From Gemmatirosa kalamazoonensis (GTDB lineage Bacteria; Gemmatimonadota; Gemmatimonadetes; Gemmatimonadales; Gemmatimonadaceae): DNA of 64,000 bases. Position 1 is the first letter of the stretch. Each line of letters opens with the position of its first letter. Below the pieces are notes generated by a model. It had not been told where the DNA came from. It was given only the letters and a program-made list of their open reading frames with translations, and made no database searches. A program made the translations under genes and the position numbers. The stretch lies in contig NZ_CP007128.1 in the NCBI RefSeq assembly GCF_000522985.1, positions 3,828,220-3,892,219 of the forward strand, read 5' to 3'. This document shows positions 19,954 to 26,261 of the stretch, piece by piece.

Positions 19954-21183
<1,230 letters not shown>

Positions 21184-24129
21184 GATCGACTCGTATACGG
21201 AACGGGCGGGCGGCGCTCGTGGCGCGCCCGCCGGAATGGAAGACCCGACGTGCAGACGTCGGCGCCCGCTCACCGGCGCGACGCGCCGGAGCGGCCGGAA
21301 ACCTAGCGGGCTGGCCACGGCGGCGGCAAGCGAACGCGGGACGTCCGTTTCGCCGCGTTCCGTCCGCGTGGCCGTGCGCCGCTCGTCGACCTGCTGGCCG
21401 TCGCGATGGCTGTCGCGCGCCCCCGCGCCGGCGGCCGGGGACGTGATGATCTCCTCGCCCGCGCTCGGCGCGAGGATCTGCACCTCTCGGCGCCGCGGCA
21501 CGAGGCCGAACGCGACCGCGCGGGTCTCGCCGGCGGCGATGGTGAGCTCTACGCGTTCGGGCTCGAACCGGTACTGCGTGGGCACGTTGTCGCCGCGTAC
21601 GCTGGCCACCCACCGGCCGGGCGGCACCTCGCCGAAGTCCACCGTGCCGTCGGCGCGGCTGGTCGCGGTGAGCGTGCCGTGCTCGCCCGCGAGCTCCACC
21701 GTCAGCTCCTCCACACCGCCGGCGTCGACGAGCGAGTCGGTGCCGCCGCCGAGCGCCGTGCGCGCGGAGCTGAAGCGCCGGATCACCGCCGAGACGCGCG
21801 CCCCGCGCGACACCATCACGCGGAACGCCGCGCCGCCGCGCGACGCGCCGTCGACGACCACGACGCGGTCGCCGAACGCGAGCGCCCCGCCGCGCGCCGC
21901 CGTCGTGCCGAGCGCCACCGGGTACGTGCCCGGCGCGAGATCCGGGAATGCGACGCGTCCGTCGTCGTCGGTGACCGCCACGGCGTCGCCGACCCGGATC
22001 AGCGCGCGCGACAGCCCGCGTCCGGACGCCGCGTCCACCACGCGGCCGTGCGCTCCCTGTGCGCGGCGGCCGCCGCCGAACGGCAGAGCGATCGCGCGCG
22101 CGTACTCGAAGAACACGTCGGTGCGGCCGGCGGCGAGCGTTCGCTGGATGCCGGGCTGCGGCACGCGCCGCACGCGCACGCTGAGCGCGCCGCCGCGCGC
22201 GAGCCGGTGCTCGAGCGTCGCGTCGCCGCTCAGCGCCCACGCATCGACGTCGCCGCGCGTGCGGACGCCGAGCGCCGCGATGCTCAGCGTCGACGCGAAC
22301 GGCAGCGGCATCGCGCCGTTCACGCCGGCCACCGCCGTCGCTGGTGCGAGCCGGAGGACCGAACGCCCATCGTTCACGTCGGCGAACGCGCCGATGCGCA
22401 TCCCGCCGACGGTCGACACGTCCACGCTGGCGCTCATCGCGCGAAAGCGACCGCCCGCGTCCGCCACCACGTCGTGCACGACGCCCGTCTCGCCGGCGAG
22501 CGACAGCGACACGGGCCCGACGCTCTGCGACGCGCGTACGCGCGCGGCGTTCTGCCACGCGTCGATCAGTCGATCGCCGAAGCGCTCGCGGCGCGCGTCG
22601 CGCTCGAGTCCGACCGTCACGCGCTCGAGCAGCGTCGTCGACAGTCCGGCGAACGCGAGCCGCTGCGAGAAGACGGTCGGCATGCGCGTCGACGCGTCGA
22701 CGTCCTGACGGCTCGCGTTCGCCGCGATGCGTACCGCGGACGCCAGTCGCAGCGACGTACCGACGTAGTCGGAGCGCGTCCCCTGCTGCGGCCCCGCGAA
22801 CGTCGTCGGCGCGGCGCGATGCGACGCGTCGTACGTGAAGCGTCCGGCCCCGCCGGACAGCCGCGCGTCGACCGCGTGCGAGACGCCCTGCGGCCCGCTG
22901 CTCCCTGCCAGCTCGACGTCGAGCGACGGCGCGCGCGCGCCGCCGGCGGCGAACGTGGCGCTCGCGACGTGCCCCGGCGTGTAGCCGCCGACGCGGTTCA
23001 GGACGTTGAGGCCGACCGCCGCGCCGGCAGGCGTGTGCGCGCGCACGAACGCAGCGACCTCGCCGCCCGCCTCCGGCGTCCACCGCGCGTGCTGCGCGAA
23101 GCCGCCGACGTCGAGCGACGCGGCGGTATGCTCGACGCCGGCGCCGAAGCCCGGCACGCCGGAGCTGGTGAGCGGCGAGAGCCCGTAGAGCTGATCGCCG
23201 ACGCGCGCCCGCAGGTCGTTCGTGCGCACCGTGACGCGGTACTCGTCGCGCTGCTCGAACGGCGAGAACGCGCTCGGGCCTCCGGGCGCCGGCGCCCGCA
23301 GCAGGAAGTCGACGTTCGCGCTGCCGGTCACCATGCCCGTGCCCGACAGCTCCGCGGGCGACATGCCGACGCTGCCGGCGCGCAGCCGGAGTTGCGCGGG
23401 CAGCGTGGAGGCCGTCGCCGCGGCGCCGCCGAGCCGCGCGACCACCGTGACCTGCGCGCTCGCCGTGGCGCGCGTCGAGTCACCGCCGTCGACCGTGAGC
23501 TCGACGAGATCGTCCCGGCCGCGTGGCTCGCCGCGCACGCCGCGCACGTCCACCGCCACCTCGCGTGACGCGTTAGGCGGCAGCTCGAGCGCGCCCTGCA
23601 CCCTCGCCGTGGCGCCGCCGCTCACCGTCGCGCGCAGCGCCACGTGCGCGGGCACGTTCCCGCGATTCGCGACGCGGAAGCGCACCTCGTAACGCTGGCT
23701 CGCCAGCGCGTACTCGGGCGCCAGCGCGAGCGCGACGCTCACCGCGCGCCGCTCCGCGACGTCGACGCGCAGCGTGTCGCGGACGACGGCGCCGTCCGGC
23801 AGCGCGAGGGACAGCGCGACCGCATACCGTCCGGCGACGGCGTCGTCCGGCACCGAGACGCCGACGATCCACGTGTCCGACTCCCCCGGCGCGAGCGTCG
23901 CGTCGCCCGCACCGAGCACCAGCCGCCAGGCCGCCGGCGGCGCGACGCGCTCCGCGAACCGCACCGAGTCCGCGCCCCCGTTCCGCACGGTGAGCGCAGC
24001 CGTCACCGTCGCGCCGGGAGCGACGTGCCGCACCGTCGTGTCGCGCGCGCGCAGCGAGACGGTGCTTTGCCCGCGGAGCGGCGACGCGAGCGCGACACCG
24101 GCGACCGCCGCGAGCGCGAGCGGCTTCAT
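21184..24129 (-). CDS. Usher-like outer-membrane protein of a putative chaperone-usher-like locus (no own stop)
   Basis: Large exported protein of about 960-980 residues. A signal peptide ([20 protein letters not shown]) precedes two to three Ig-like/NEW3-type domains (about residues 25-240). A predicted barrel follows (about 260-700), with alternating strands and segments such as [20 protein letters not shown]. Two carboxypeptidase-regulatory-like domains close it ([36 protein letters not shown]). This resembles the barrel-plus-C-terminal-domain plan of pilus ushers, but family membership is inferred, not matched. Its frame has no stop before icd; G/C-ending codons persist to about 21330 and then weaken. 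Start ATG at 24127-24129; a GTG at 24171 is an alternative. Confidence 0.6.
21205..21232 (-). terminator. GC-rich hairpin between the usher-like gene and icd
   Basis: Arms at 21205-21216 and 21222-21232 pair over 11 bp with one bulge around a 5-nt loop, about 22 nt before the icd ATG. There is no clear T-tract. It lies where the usher-like gene should end and may be a terminator or attenuator, supporting separate expression of the two domains despite the open frame. Confidence 0.35.
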
Positions 24130-24178
24130 GCGACCAACGACGCGTTGCGCGGGAGTGGACGGTCCGCGCACGGCTCGA

Positions 24179-25006
24179 TCAGAGCTTCAGCTTGTAGGGC
24201 ACGGCGTACACCGCCTCGTCGCCGGTGTCGGCGAACAGGACGACCTTGTACGCGCCCGCCGGCAGTCGCCCGAGCTCGAAGCGCTGCTTCAGCGAGGTCC
24301 CTGGATACAGCAGCCCGCGGTCCTGCTGCTTGCGCACCACCAGTGCGCCGCTCTCGTCGTACAGCTCCATCCACAGCACGGGGCGGTACGCGCGCGAGCC
24401 GTCGTTGCGCACGACCAGCTCGAGCGCGCGCGTGCTGTCGCGCTGCTCCTCCGCCCGCAGCCCGGTGAAGCTCACCCGGCGCGAGCCGCCGCTGACGTGC
24501 GTCGCCACCTGCACGGCGTAGCGCACGACGGCGCCGACGCCGACCTGTCCGCGGCCGGGCGCCGGCGCGGCGTTAGGCGTGTTGGGCACGCCCTCCACCA
24601 TCACCGTGCTCCAGTACGTGCCGGCGAGCGTGTCGCCGGGCGGCACGGCGACGACGTACGTCAGCCCGACGTCGGCTCCCGGCGGCACGACGAGCTGGCT
24701 GGTGCTCGGCGTCACCCATCGCGCGTTGGACCGCACGGTCGACCCCGGGGCGTCGAAGTGTGACGTGCCGTCGGCGAAGAACTGGTAGTCCGTCTGATAG
24801 ATGCGCACCGCCTGCGGCTGCGCCGACGAGTTCAGCACGCGGATGGTGCCCACGTAGCTCTCGCCGGGCGCCGCGGCGCGCTCCTGCACCGTGCTGGTCA
24901 CGACGGCGATCTGCGCCCGGGCGCTGGACGCGCCGCCCGCCGACGCCACGGCGACGAGCAGCGCGGCCGGAACGCGCATTGAGAGAGCATGCATCGAGCG
25001 GGGCAT
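24179..25006 (-). CDS. PapD-like periplasmic chaperone
   Basis: Predicted periplasmic chaperone that would hold pilin-like subunits before export. The 275-residue product has an N-terminal signal peptide ([21 protein letters not shown]) and two Ig-like domains. The first matches the fimbrial-chaperone pattern of short strands with [25 protein letters not shown] and [20 protein letters not shown]. The second (about residues 150-275) has [20 protein letters not shown] and [20 protein letters not shown]. It is followed 49 nt later by the usher-like gene and preceded 12 nt earlier by a subunit gene. The family call rests on strand pattern and context rather than on a diagnostic motif. Confidence 0.65.
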
Positions 25007-25018
25007 CGTGGGATGCGA

Positions 25019-25477
25019 TCAGAGGAGGCGGAACGAGAGCGACGCGGAGCTCGCGGCGATCGCGCCCGCGGCGGACGTGGCGGACAGGCGGTGCGTGATG
25101 GTGAGGGTACCGCTCTTGTTCTTCGGGATCGACGACGTGAGGTCCGCGTACGACGTCGACATGGTCACGAGGCCGTTCGACGTCGCTCCGCTCGGCGCCG
25201 TGACCGACACCTCGAGCGTCACCCCGGCCGGCAGCGCGGCGGCCAGCTTCGCCTGCAGCGTCAGGGCGCTGCCGTTGCCGATCGTGAACGCGAGCGTCGT
25301 CGTCGACACGCTCACCGACGTCGGCGCGGAGCCGGCGACGGCCGTCGACACCCGCAGCGTCGGCGTGCCGCTCGGGGTCAGCGACTGCGCATCGAGCCGC
25401 TGCACGCTGCCTAACGAGATGAGGGCGACGAGCGCGAGAGCCGCTCGCGTGCCGTGGAGAGCCGAGTGCCGCACCAC
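25019..25477 (-). CDS. Pilin-like secreted subunit B
   Basis: A 152-residue exported protein with signal peptide (AALALVALISLGSVQRLDA) and a small all-beta mature domain rich in Ser, Thr and Ala, with no cysteines. It is a paralogue of the gene just upstream: both share TAxAGSAPTxV, the P-[AS]-GVTL-x-x-S segment followed by AP-x-GA-x-S, and SLSAT/RLSAT then AAG near the C-terminus. It ends in a short strand (SASLSFRLL). The start is GTG at 25475-25477. It sits 22 nt after subunit A and 12 nt before the chaperone-like gene. Likely a surface-fibre subunit; no known pilin family was recognised. Confidence 0.6.
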   Translation of the reverse strand: MVRHSALHGTRAALALVALISLGSVQRLDAQSLTPSGTPTLRVSTAVAGSAPTSVSVSTTTLAFTIGNGSALTLQAKLAAALPAGVTLEVSVTAPSGATSNGLVTMSTSYADLTSSIPKNKSGTLTITHRLSATSAAGAIAASSASLSFRLL

Positions 25478-25499
25478 GCGGTGTCCTGCTCGTGGCGGC

Positions 25500-25997
25500 T
25501 CAGGTTCCGCCGGTGATCGTGTACGTCACCGTTCGCGACGTCGCGGTCACCACGCCCGCGGCGGCCGTCGCCGAGAGCGAGTACGTCACCGAGAGCCCCG
25601 ACTGGTTCAGCTTCGTGATGCCGGTGACGAGGTCCACGGCCACGGTGCCTAACGTCTGCGCACCGGCGCTCGCCGCGCCGGCCGGGGCGCCGAGGCTCGC
25701 CGTCAACGTGACACCCGACGGCATCGCGCTGCCGATGGACGCCGTGATCTTCGCGCCGGTCTGGTTGCACGTGACGGCCCACGTCGTGGACGACGACGTC
25801 ACGGCGGTCGGCGCGCTCCCCGCGGTGGCCGTCGTCACGTTCAGCGTGACCGACGGGGCCGACACCGAGATCTGATTGATCGCGTCGACCTGAAAGTTGA
25901 CGGTCTGGCTCGCGGTCTGTGCCGCCGCCGAGCGCACCGCCGACAGGGCGATCGCGACGAGGACGCCTCGGATCCACGTGCGAGGCTGCATCGACAT
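25500..25997 (-). CDS. Pilin-like secreted subunit A
   Basis: A 165-residue exported protein with signal peptide (VLVAIALSAVRSAAAQ) and a beta-rich, Ser/Thr/Ala-rich mature part. It opens with a polar strand (SQTVNFQVDAINQISVS) and ends in TVTYTITGG, the kind of terminal beta strand used for donor-strand exchange in chaperone-usher pili. A single Cys (WAVTCNQTG) cannot form an internal disulfide. It is first in the subunit A - subunit B - chaperone - usher order. ATG at 25995-25997; no clear Shine-Dalgarno is visible. Function is inferred from context. Confidence 0.6.
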   Translation of the reverse strand: MSMQPRTWIRGVLVAIALSAVRSAAAQTASQTVNFQVDAINQISVSAPSVTLNVTTATAGSAPTAVTSSSTTWAVTCNQTGAKITASIGSAMPSGVTLTASLGAPAGAASAGAQTLGTVAVDLVTGITKLNQSGLSVTYSLSATAAAGVVTATSRTVTYTITGGT

Positions 25998-26178: not shown

Positions 26179-26261
26179 TGCCGGGGACGGGACTCGAACC
26201 CGTATGCCCTTGCGGACAGAGGTTTTTGAGACCTCCGCGTATACCATTCCGCCACCCCGGC
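26179..26261 (-). tRNA. tRNA-Leu (anticodon CAA)
   Basis: An 83-nt class II tRNA. The acceptor stem GCCGGGG pairs with CCCCGGC, followed by discriminator A; CCA is not encoded. The anticodon stem GAGGT/ACCTC encloses the loop CTCAAAA, giving anticodon CAA, which reads UUG. A variable arm and the T arm with GGTTCGAGTCC complete the leucine pattern. It has its own promoter and terminator. Confidence 0.95.

Follow-up and report, generated by a model that had tools for sequence, protein, structure and literature searches.

A conserved four-gene operon of Gemmatirosa kalamazoonensis resembling a divergent, plug-less chaperone-usher pathway

The genome of Gemmatirosa kalamazoonensis comprises 7.48 Mb on four contigs, and the window analysed here, a stretch of 64,000 nucleotides, lies within the 5.31 Mb contig. 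A four-gene operon is located on the minus strand of this window (25997-21400), in which the genes for two small subunits (subunit 1 and subunit 2), a chaperone and a large barrel protein follow each other with intergenic spacings of about 22, 12 and 50 bases. Each of the four gene products has a signal-peptide-like start. The operon is preceded by a gene for tRNA-Leu and followed by icd, which encodes NADP isocitrate dehydrogenase; the tRNA-Leu (caa) gene (26179-26261) is found directly upstream on the same strand. A search for promoter and terminator consensus sequences between positions 21100 and 26300 gave no match. An earlier reading of the DNA from its letters, hereafter the sequence-only reading, had claimed these four genes in an order and with short spacings of the chaperone-usher type. 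All four could be confirmed on the minus strand, and the order and spacings were borne out, the same order recurring across phyla. A chance run of open reading frames was considered and rejected because the gene order is conserved, its recurrence across phyla being far beyond chance. NCBIfam holds no names for the chaperone, the subunits or the barrel protein, and one annotated record of such an operon carries labels such as 'hypothetical' and 'carboxypeptidase regulatory-like'.

Subunit 1 (165 amino acids, 25500..25997, minus strand) is the proposed main polymerising subunit, in which a signal peptide is followed by an N-terminal extension and a single beta domain. Its extension, TASQTVNFQVDAINQISV (25863..25916, minus strand), is a putative donor strand with a strictly alternating hydrophobic pattern: among 27 relatives, alignment columns 60, 62 and 64 are hydrophobic in 85-100%, and the columns between them in 4%. 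Subunit 2 (152 amino acids, 25019..25477, minus strand) is a paralogue that lacks the extension and may serve as tip or starter; it is predicted to form a 7-strand beta domain (pLDDT mostly 84-97). The A-type subunit profile, which includes subunit 1 among its sequences, covers subunit 1 over its full length (positions 1-185) and aligns subunit 2 only from position 36. Both proteins are predicted to be secreted and share 38% identity, with one Cys in subunit 1 and none in subunit 2. Neither has a Pfam match above cut-off or a WxL-domain match, subunit 1 matches nothing in NCBIfam and nothing in the PDB by sequence, and no solved relative turned up when the subunit profiles were searched against the sequences of the PDB. 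The description of two paralogous secreted subunits without a Cys pair and outside any recognised pilin family holds.

In nearly all complete loci of this kind, extension-bearing and extension-less subunits occur together, the exceptions in the stretch examined being L067, L068 and L069. The type without an extension is a paralogue resembling subunit 2 in Gemmatimonadota, which matches the A profile from about position 40, and belongs to a different family (B) outside this phylum. This pairing suggests a polymerising pilin and a tip, the two kinds of subunit that a tip-bearing fibre would require. At two loci (L029, 11739-12374; L059, 8084-8689), the barrel gene is followed downstream by additional A-type subunit genes in the opposite orientation.

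The third gene (24179..25006, minus strand) encodes a periplasmic chaperone with the two-domain fold of PapD. In the AlphaFold model, two Ig-like domains are placed in the PapD arrangement with a pLDDT mostly above 90, and the sequence runs no further than the final strand of the second domain and has no C-terminal transmembrane helix. Fold comparison of this model gave Z scores of 17.2 for the WxL-interacting protein (WxLIP) of E. faecium, 13.3 for CfaA and about 12 for Caf1M, FimC and CsuC. Profile-profile alignment using hhalign linked the protein to PapD-type chaperones including FimC (99.1%, E 1e-18), and the chaperone profile matches PF00345-positive Gemmatimonadota proteins (E 3.5e-17), which exceed the PapD_N cut-off with 53.1 and 47.5 bits. 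The window chaperone by itself matches neither PF00345 nor any other Pfam model above cut-off. The chaperone is thus a member of the PapD superfamily and, as judged from its sequence, a remote homologue of the chaperones of chaperone-usher systems. This agrees with the PapD-like two-domain chaperone of the sequence-only reading, and a missing PapD fold, which had been named as evidence against that reading, was not observed in the predicted model. When a profile of 25 chaperones was searched against the PDB, the E. faecium WxLIP was the sole significant match (E 1.8e-10); an earlier profile built from Gemmatimonadota only had given chance matches. The Pfam WxLIP domains PF06030/PF11797 are present in 5 of the 25 chaperones, the window protein not being one of these. 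The closest solved relative, in sequence and in fold, is therefore the Gram-positive WxLIP.

Column conservation among the 25 chaperones points to a segment of 17 residues (24494..24544, minus strand) as the proposed G1 donor strand, the first part of which is unpaired in the model. The strand is partly alternating, with an invariant Arg157 and a near-invariant Gln161. The carboxylate anchor of the classical PapD/FimC chaperones, Arg8/Lys112, is not kept in these 25 proteins: Arg8 is not conserved, and Lys112 aligns to Gln161, which is Gln in 24 of them, with the invariant Arg157 four residues before. As the chaperone lies in the reading frame of subunit 2, behind a TGA, the read-through fusion of both was folded. 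In the resulting model, which is based on a 36-row alignment, both parts fold well (mean pLDDT 88.8), but the G1 donor segment is unpaired, at a pTM of 0.62.

The last gene encodes a predicted usher-like outer-membrane protein of about 910 amino acids up to its conserved end (21400..24129, minus strand), which was analysed by a 28-row alignment, a predicted model and its reading frame. The model comprises 890 residues (pLDDT 83.6, pTM 0.54) and consists of two N-terminal Ig-like domains, a beta barrel and two C-terminal domains. The N-terminal Ig-like domains (23440..24069, minus strand; model strands 4-210) stand where ushers have their N-terminal domain, and the first one is a NEW3 domain (PF10633, 27.0 bits, above cut-off), as had been claimed for the region ahead of the barrel. 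The barrel (22078..23409, minus strand) has 26 DSSP strands at residues 221-664 with a pLDDT mostly above 85. It lacks a plug domain, since its longest loop in the model has 17 residues and none of 27 relatives has an insertion of more than 20 residues there. The C-terminal part (21490..22077, minus strand) is formed by two beta domains that correspond in position to CTD1 and CTD2 of ushers and resemble CarboxypepD_reg and SpaA with weaker Pfam scores near the cut-off. The predicted structure thereby bears out a barrel followed by two C-terminal domains, and the possibility that a barrel of ~24 strands would be missing did not materialise in the model.

The top match of the large protein in Foldseek is FimD (3rfz, E 1.3e-12), and FimD and PapC are well represented among the best matches. 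Over the whole chain, TM-scores remain low (0.2-0.3), since the domains are placed differently or with uncertainty. Using VIA, the single best match was MtrB (6r2q_B, Z 20.9), the barrels of FimD and PapC reached Z 18.5-18.6, and TonB-dependent receptors Z 14-18. The full ushers FimD 9fy9 and 9bog align to residues 221-857 and 215-857 of the model, that is, to the barrel and both C-terminal domains, and among the matches listed only ushers also align both C-terminal domains. The family profile searches that the sequence-only reading had proposed gave a divided result: the link to PapD was found, and the link to ushers was not, with none of the 28 barrel-protein members matching the Pfam models Usher (PF00577) or PapC_N. 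One weak CooC_C match (E 0.0059) was detected among these 28 proteins, and hhalign against an usher profile gave no signal (3.7%), the template profile being thin with two sequences. PF00577 and PF00345 have no match in the whole genome and hardly any in the phylum. Of the defining features of ushers, the Pfam match and the plug are missing, and the barrel and C-terminal domains are present by prediction, which leaves the large protein a putative member of this family at best.

The region given by the sequence-only reading begins at 21184, a coordinate that is not the natural end of the large protein. The frame contains no in-frame stop before icd, which starts with ATG at 21183. In relatives, a conserved RRxV motif is followed by about 15-50 further residues, or by more, and codon-position periodicity fades from about 21430, is lost to about 21200 and returns inside icd. 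A conserved end near 21400 was therefore assigned. That the frame is open into icd may stem from an error in the sequencing, from a frameshift or from a genuine fusion of the frames; if the frame shifted by one base near the G-run at about 21420, it would meet a stop at 21305.

The chaperone is present in 20 of 99 relatives, and whole-genome counts, which cover the Gemmatimonadota, revealed profile matches in 57 of 395 genomes, about 22 of them strong. Among the named genomes scanned, 32 chaperone loci were found, in Gemmatimonadota, Bacteroidota, Verrucomicrobiota, Elusimicrobiota, Synergistota, Bipolaricaulota and Spirochaetota as well as in a Firmicutes bin, Rhodothermales and purple sulfur bacteria. 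The chaperone family thus spans about ten phyla. Individual phylum labels may be wrong because several loci come from metagenome bins; the cross-phylum spread is carried by named isolates with the operon, which belong to Thiocapsa, Thiococcus, Sphingobacterium, Chryseobacterium and Deinococcus. In Deinococcus deserti, the operon is located on plasmid 2 (L114), the annotation of which names the chaperone a 'FimB/Mfa2 family fimbrial subunit'. The barrel gene lies directly downstream of the chaperone gene in all 31 loci whose contig continues. Although the barrel-protein profile A2 was built from Gemmatimonadota sequences only, it detects the gene following the chaperone in Bacteroidota, Verrucomicrobiota, Elusimicrobiota, Synergistota, Spirochaetota, Bipolaricaulota and Chromatiaceae, with E values outside Gemmatimonadota mostly between 1e-38 and 1e-112. 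The sequence-only reading had suggested looking for the same gene order in related genomes, and it does recur, in many distantly related bacteria.

Several known systems share parts of this architecture. The archaic and alternative chaperone-usher pathways, such as Csu and CFA/I, also combine a PapD-fold chaperone, small beta-domain subunits and an usher-fold barrel with two C-terminal domains in the order subunit-chaperone-usher, and CfaA is the nearest pilus chaperone. In contrast to these pathways, the operon described here has no usher Pfam match and no plug, its barrel protein starts with NEW3/Ig domains, its subunits are unrelated by sequence, and it is found in many phyla; archaic systems have been reported from Proteobacteria, Cyanobacteria and Deinococcus-Thermus (PMC4654587). 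The ushers FimD and PapC agree with the large protein in predicted barrel size and in the order barrel-CTD1-CTD2 but differ from it in having the usher N-terminal domain and the plug, and sequence similarity to them was not detected. A second kind of operon in other Gemmatimonadota (L030, L038, L039, L044, L120) encodes DUF4402-type pilins, a chaperone remotely related to that of the window and an usher-like protein. Its general gene content is the same; however, the scanned pilins match DUF4402, and the ushers appear by eye to have a plug-like segment. The best, still weak PF00577 match among these loci was found for the usher of L120 (genome G077). PF00345-positive chaperones are encoded at two more loci, L117 and L118, and L118, a possible intermediate, also has a gene for a small secreted protein and one for a barrel protein that the profile of the window family matches.

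Taken as a whole, the operon probably works like a chaperone-usher pathway, namely a divergent, plug-less one that would use donor-strand exchange. The subunits would cross the inner membrane via their signal peptides, and the periplasmic chaperone would complete the open beta sandwich of each subunit with its G1 strand, as suggested by its homology to PapD chaperones and WxLIP and by the conserved alternating hydrophobic residues. Chaperone-subunit pairs may then dock at the barrel protein, probably on its N-terminal Ig or C-terminal domains. Going by the recurring pair of subunits, subunit 2, which lacks the extension, would start the chain as the tip, and subunit 1 would polymerise, with the N-terminal extension of each copy entering the subunit ahead of it; the fibre would leave the cell through the plug-less barrel of 24-26 strands. 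This reading is built on the gene order and its conservation, the predicted folds of chaperone and barrel protein and the remote homology of the chaperone, and the alternating donor-strand patterns in the subunit extension and in chaperone G1 also speak for it. Counted against it are the missing usher sequence similarity and plug, a nearest solved chaperone relative that is a Gram-positive surface protein and not a pilus chaperone, the donor strand that is unpaired in the fusion model and the loss of the Arg8/Lys112 pair. The divergent surface-fibre system of the sequence-only reading has been strengthened by the cross-phylum gene order and the paired subunit types; the fibre itself, like the chaperone-subunit complex, is something we infer.

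The relationship to WxLIP could also be taken at face value. In the WxL surface system of Gram-positive bacteria, a WxLIP strand is predicted to insert into the WxL partner and complete its sandwich (PMC10599100), which is the same principle as donor-strand complementation. A WxLIP-type chaperone might accordingly stay on single subunits, with the barrel displaying or anchoring the complex without polymerisation; the homology of the chaperone to WxLIP and the WxLIP Pfam domains of its relatives favour this. However, the window chaperone ends at its second domain and has no C-terminal membrane helix, unlike WxLIP, the alternating N-terminal extensions of the subunits fit polymerisation, and an usher-fold barrel is always adjacent, which leaves such a complex rather unlikely. 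It is less probable still, and indeed improbable, that the barrel serves as a transporter or an adhesin of the outer membrane, functionally unrelated to the ushers, which it would resemble only through a common large-barrel fold, with the small proteins and the chaperone as its secreted partners. MtrB as the best VIA match, the TonB-dependent receptors behind it and the missing usher sequence signal would fit this explanation, but the alignment of both C-terminal domains with FimD and the usher-like context of the operon with its PapD-fold chaperone and pilin-like subunits speak against it.

No published description of the operon was found in the literature searched, mostly papers available without subscription, which included work on DUF4402/COG1470, chaperone-usher systems outside the Proteobacteria and Acinetobacter Fil, and the link between chaperone-usher assembly and the WxL system was not made in the literature found. 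We consider the chances about even that the operon represents a separate plug-less chaperone-usher class in about ten phyla and that its chaperone and the WxL-interacting proteins of Gram-positive bacteria have a common ancestor; donor-strand chaperoning would then extend across single- and double-membrane bacteria. If this is true, Gemmatimonadota, Bacteroidota, Verrucomicrobiota, Elusimicrobiota, Deinococcota and others would possess a surface-fibre secretion class that has no name in curated family models and is missed by usher models. An usher would then be able to function although it has no plug and docks its substrates by another domain, and chaperone-usher assembly in diderm bacteria would be tied to the WxL system of Gram-positive bacteria.
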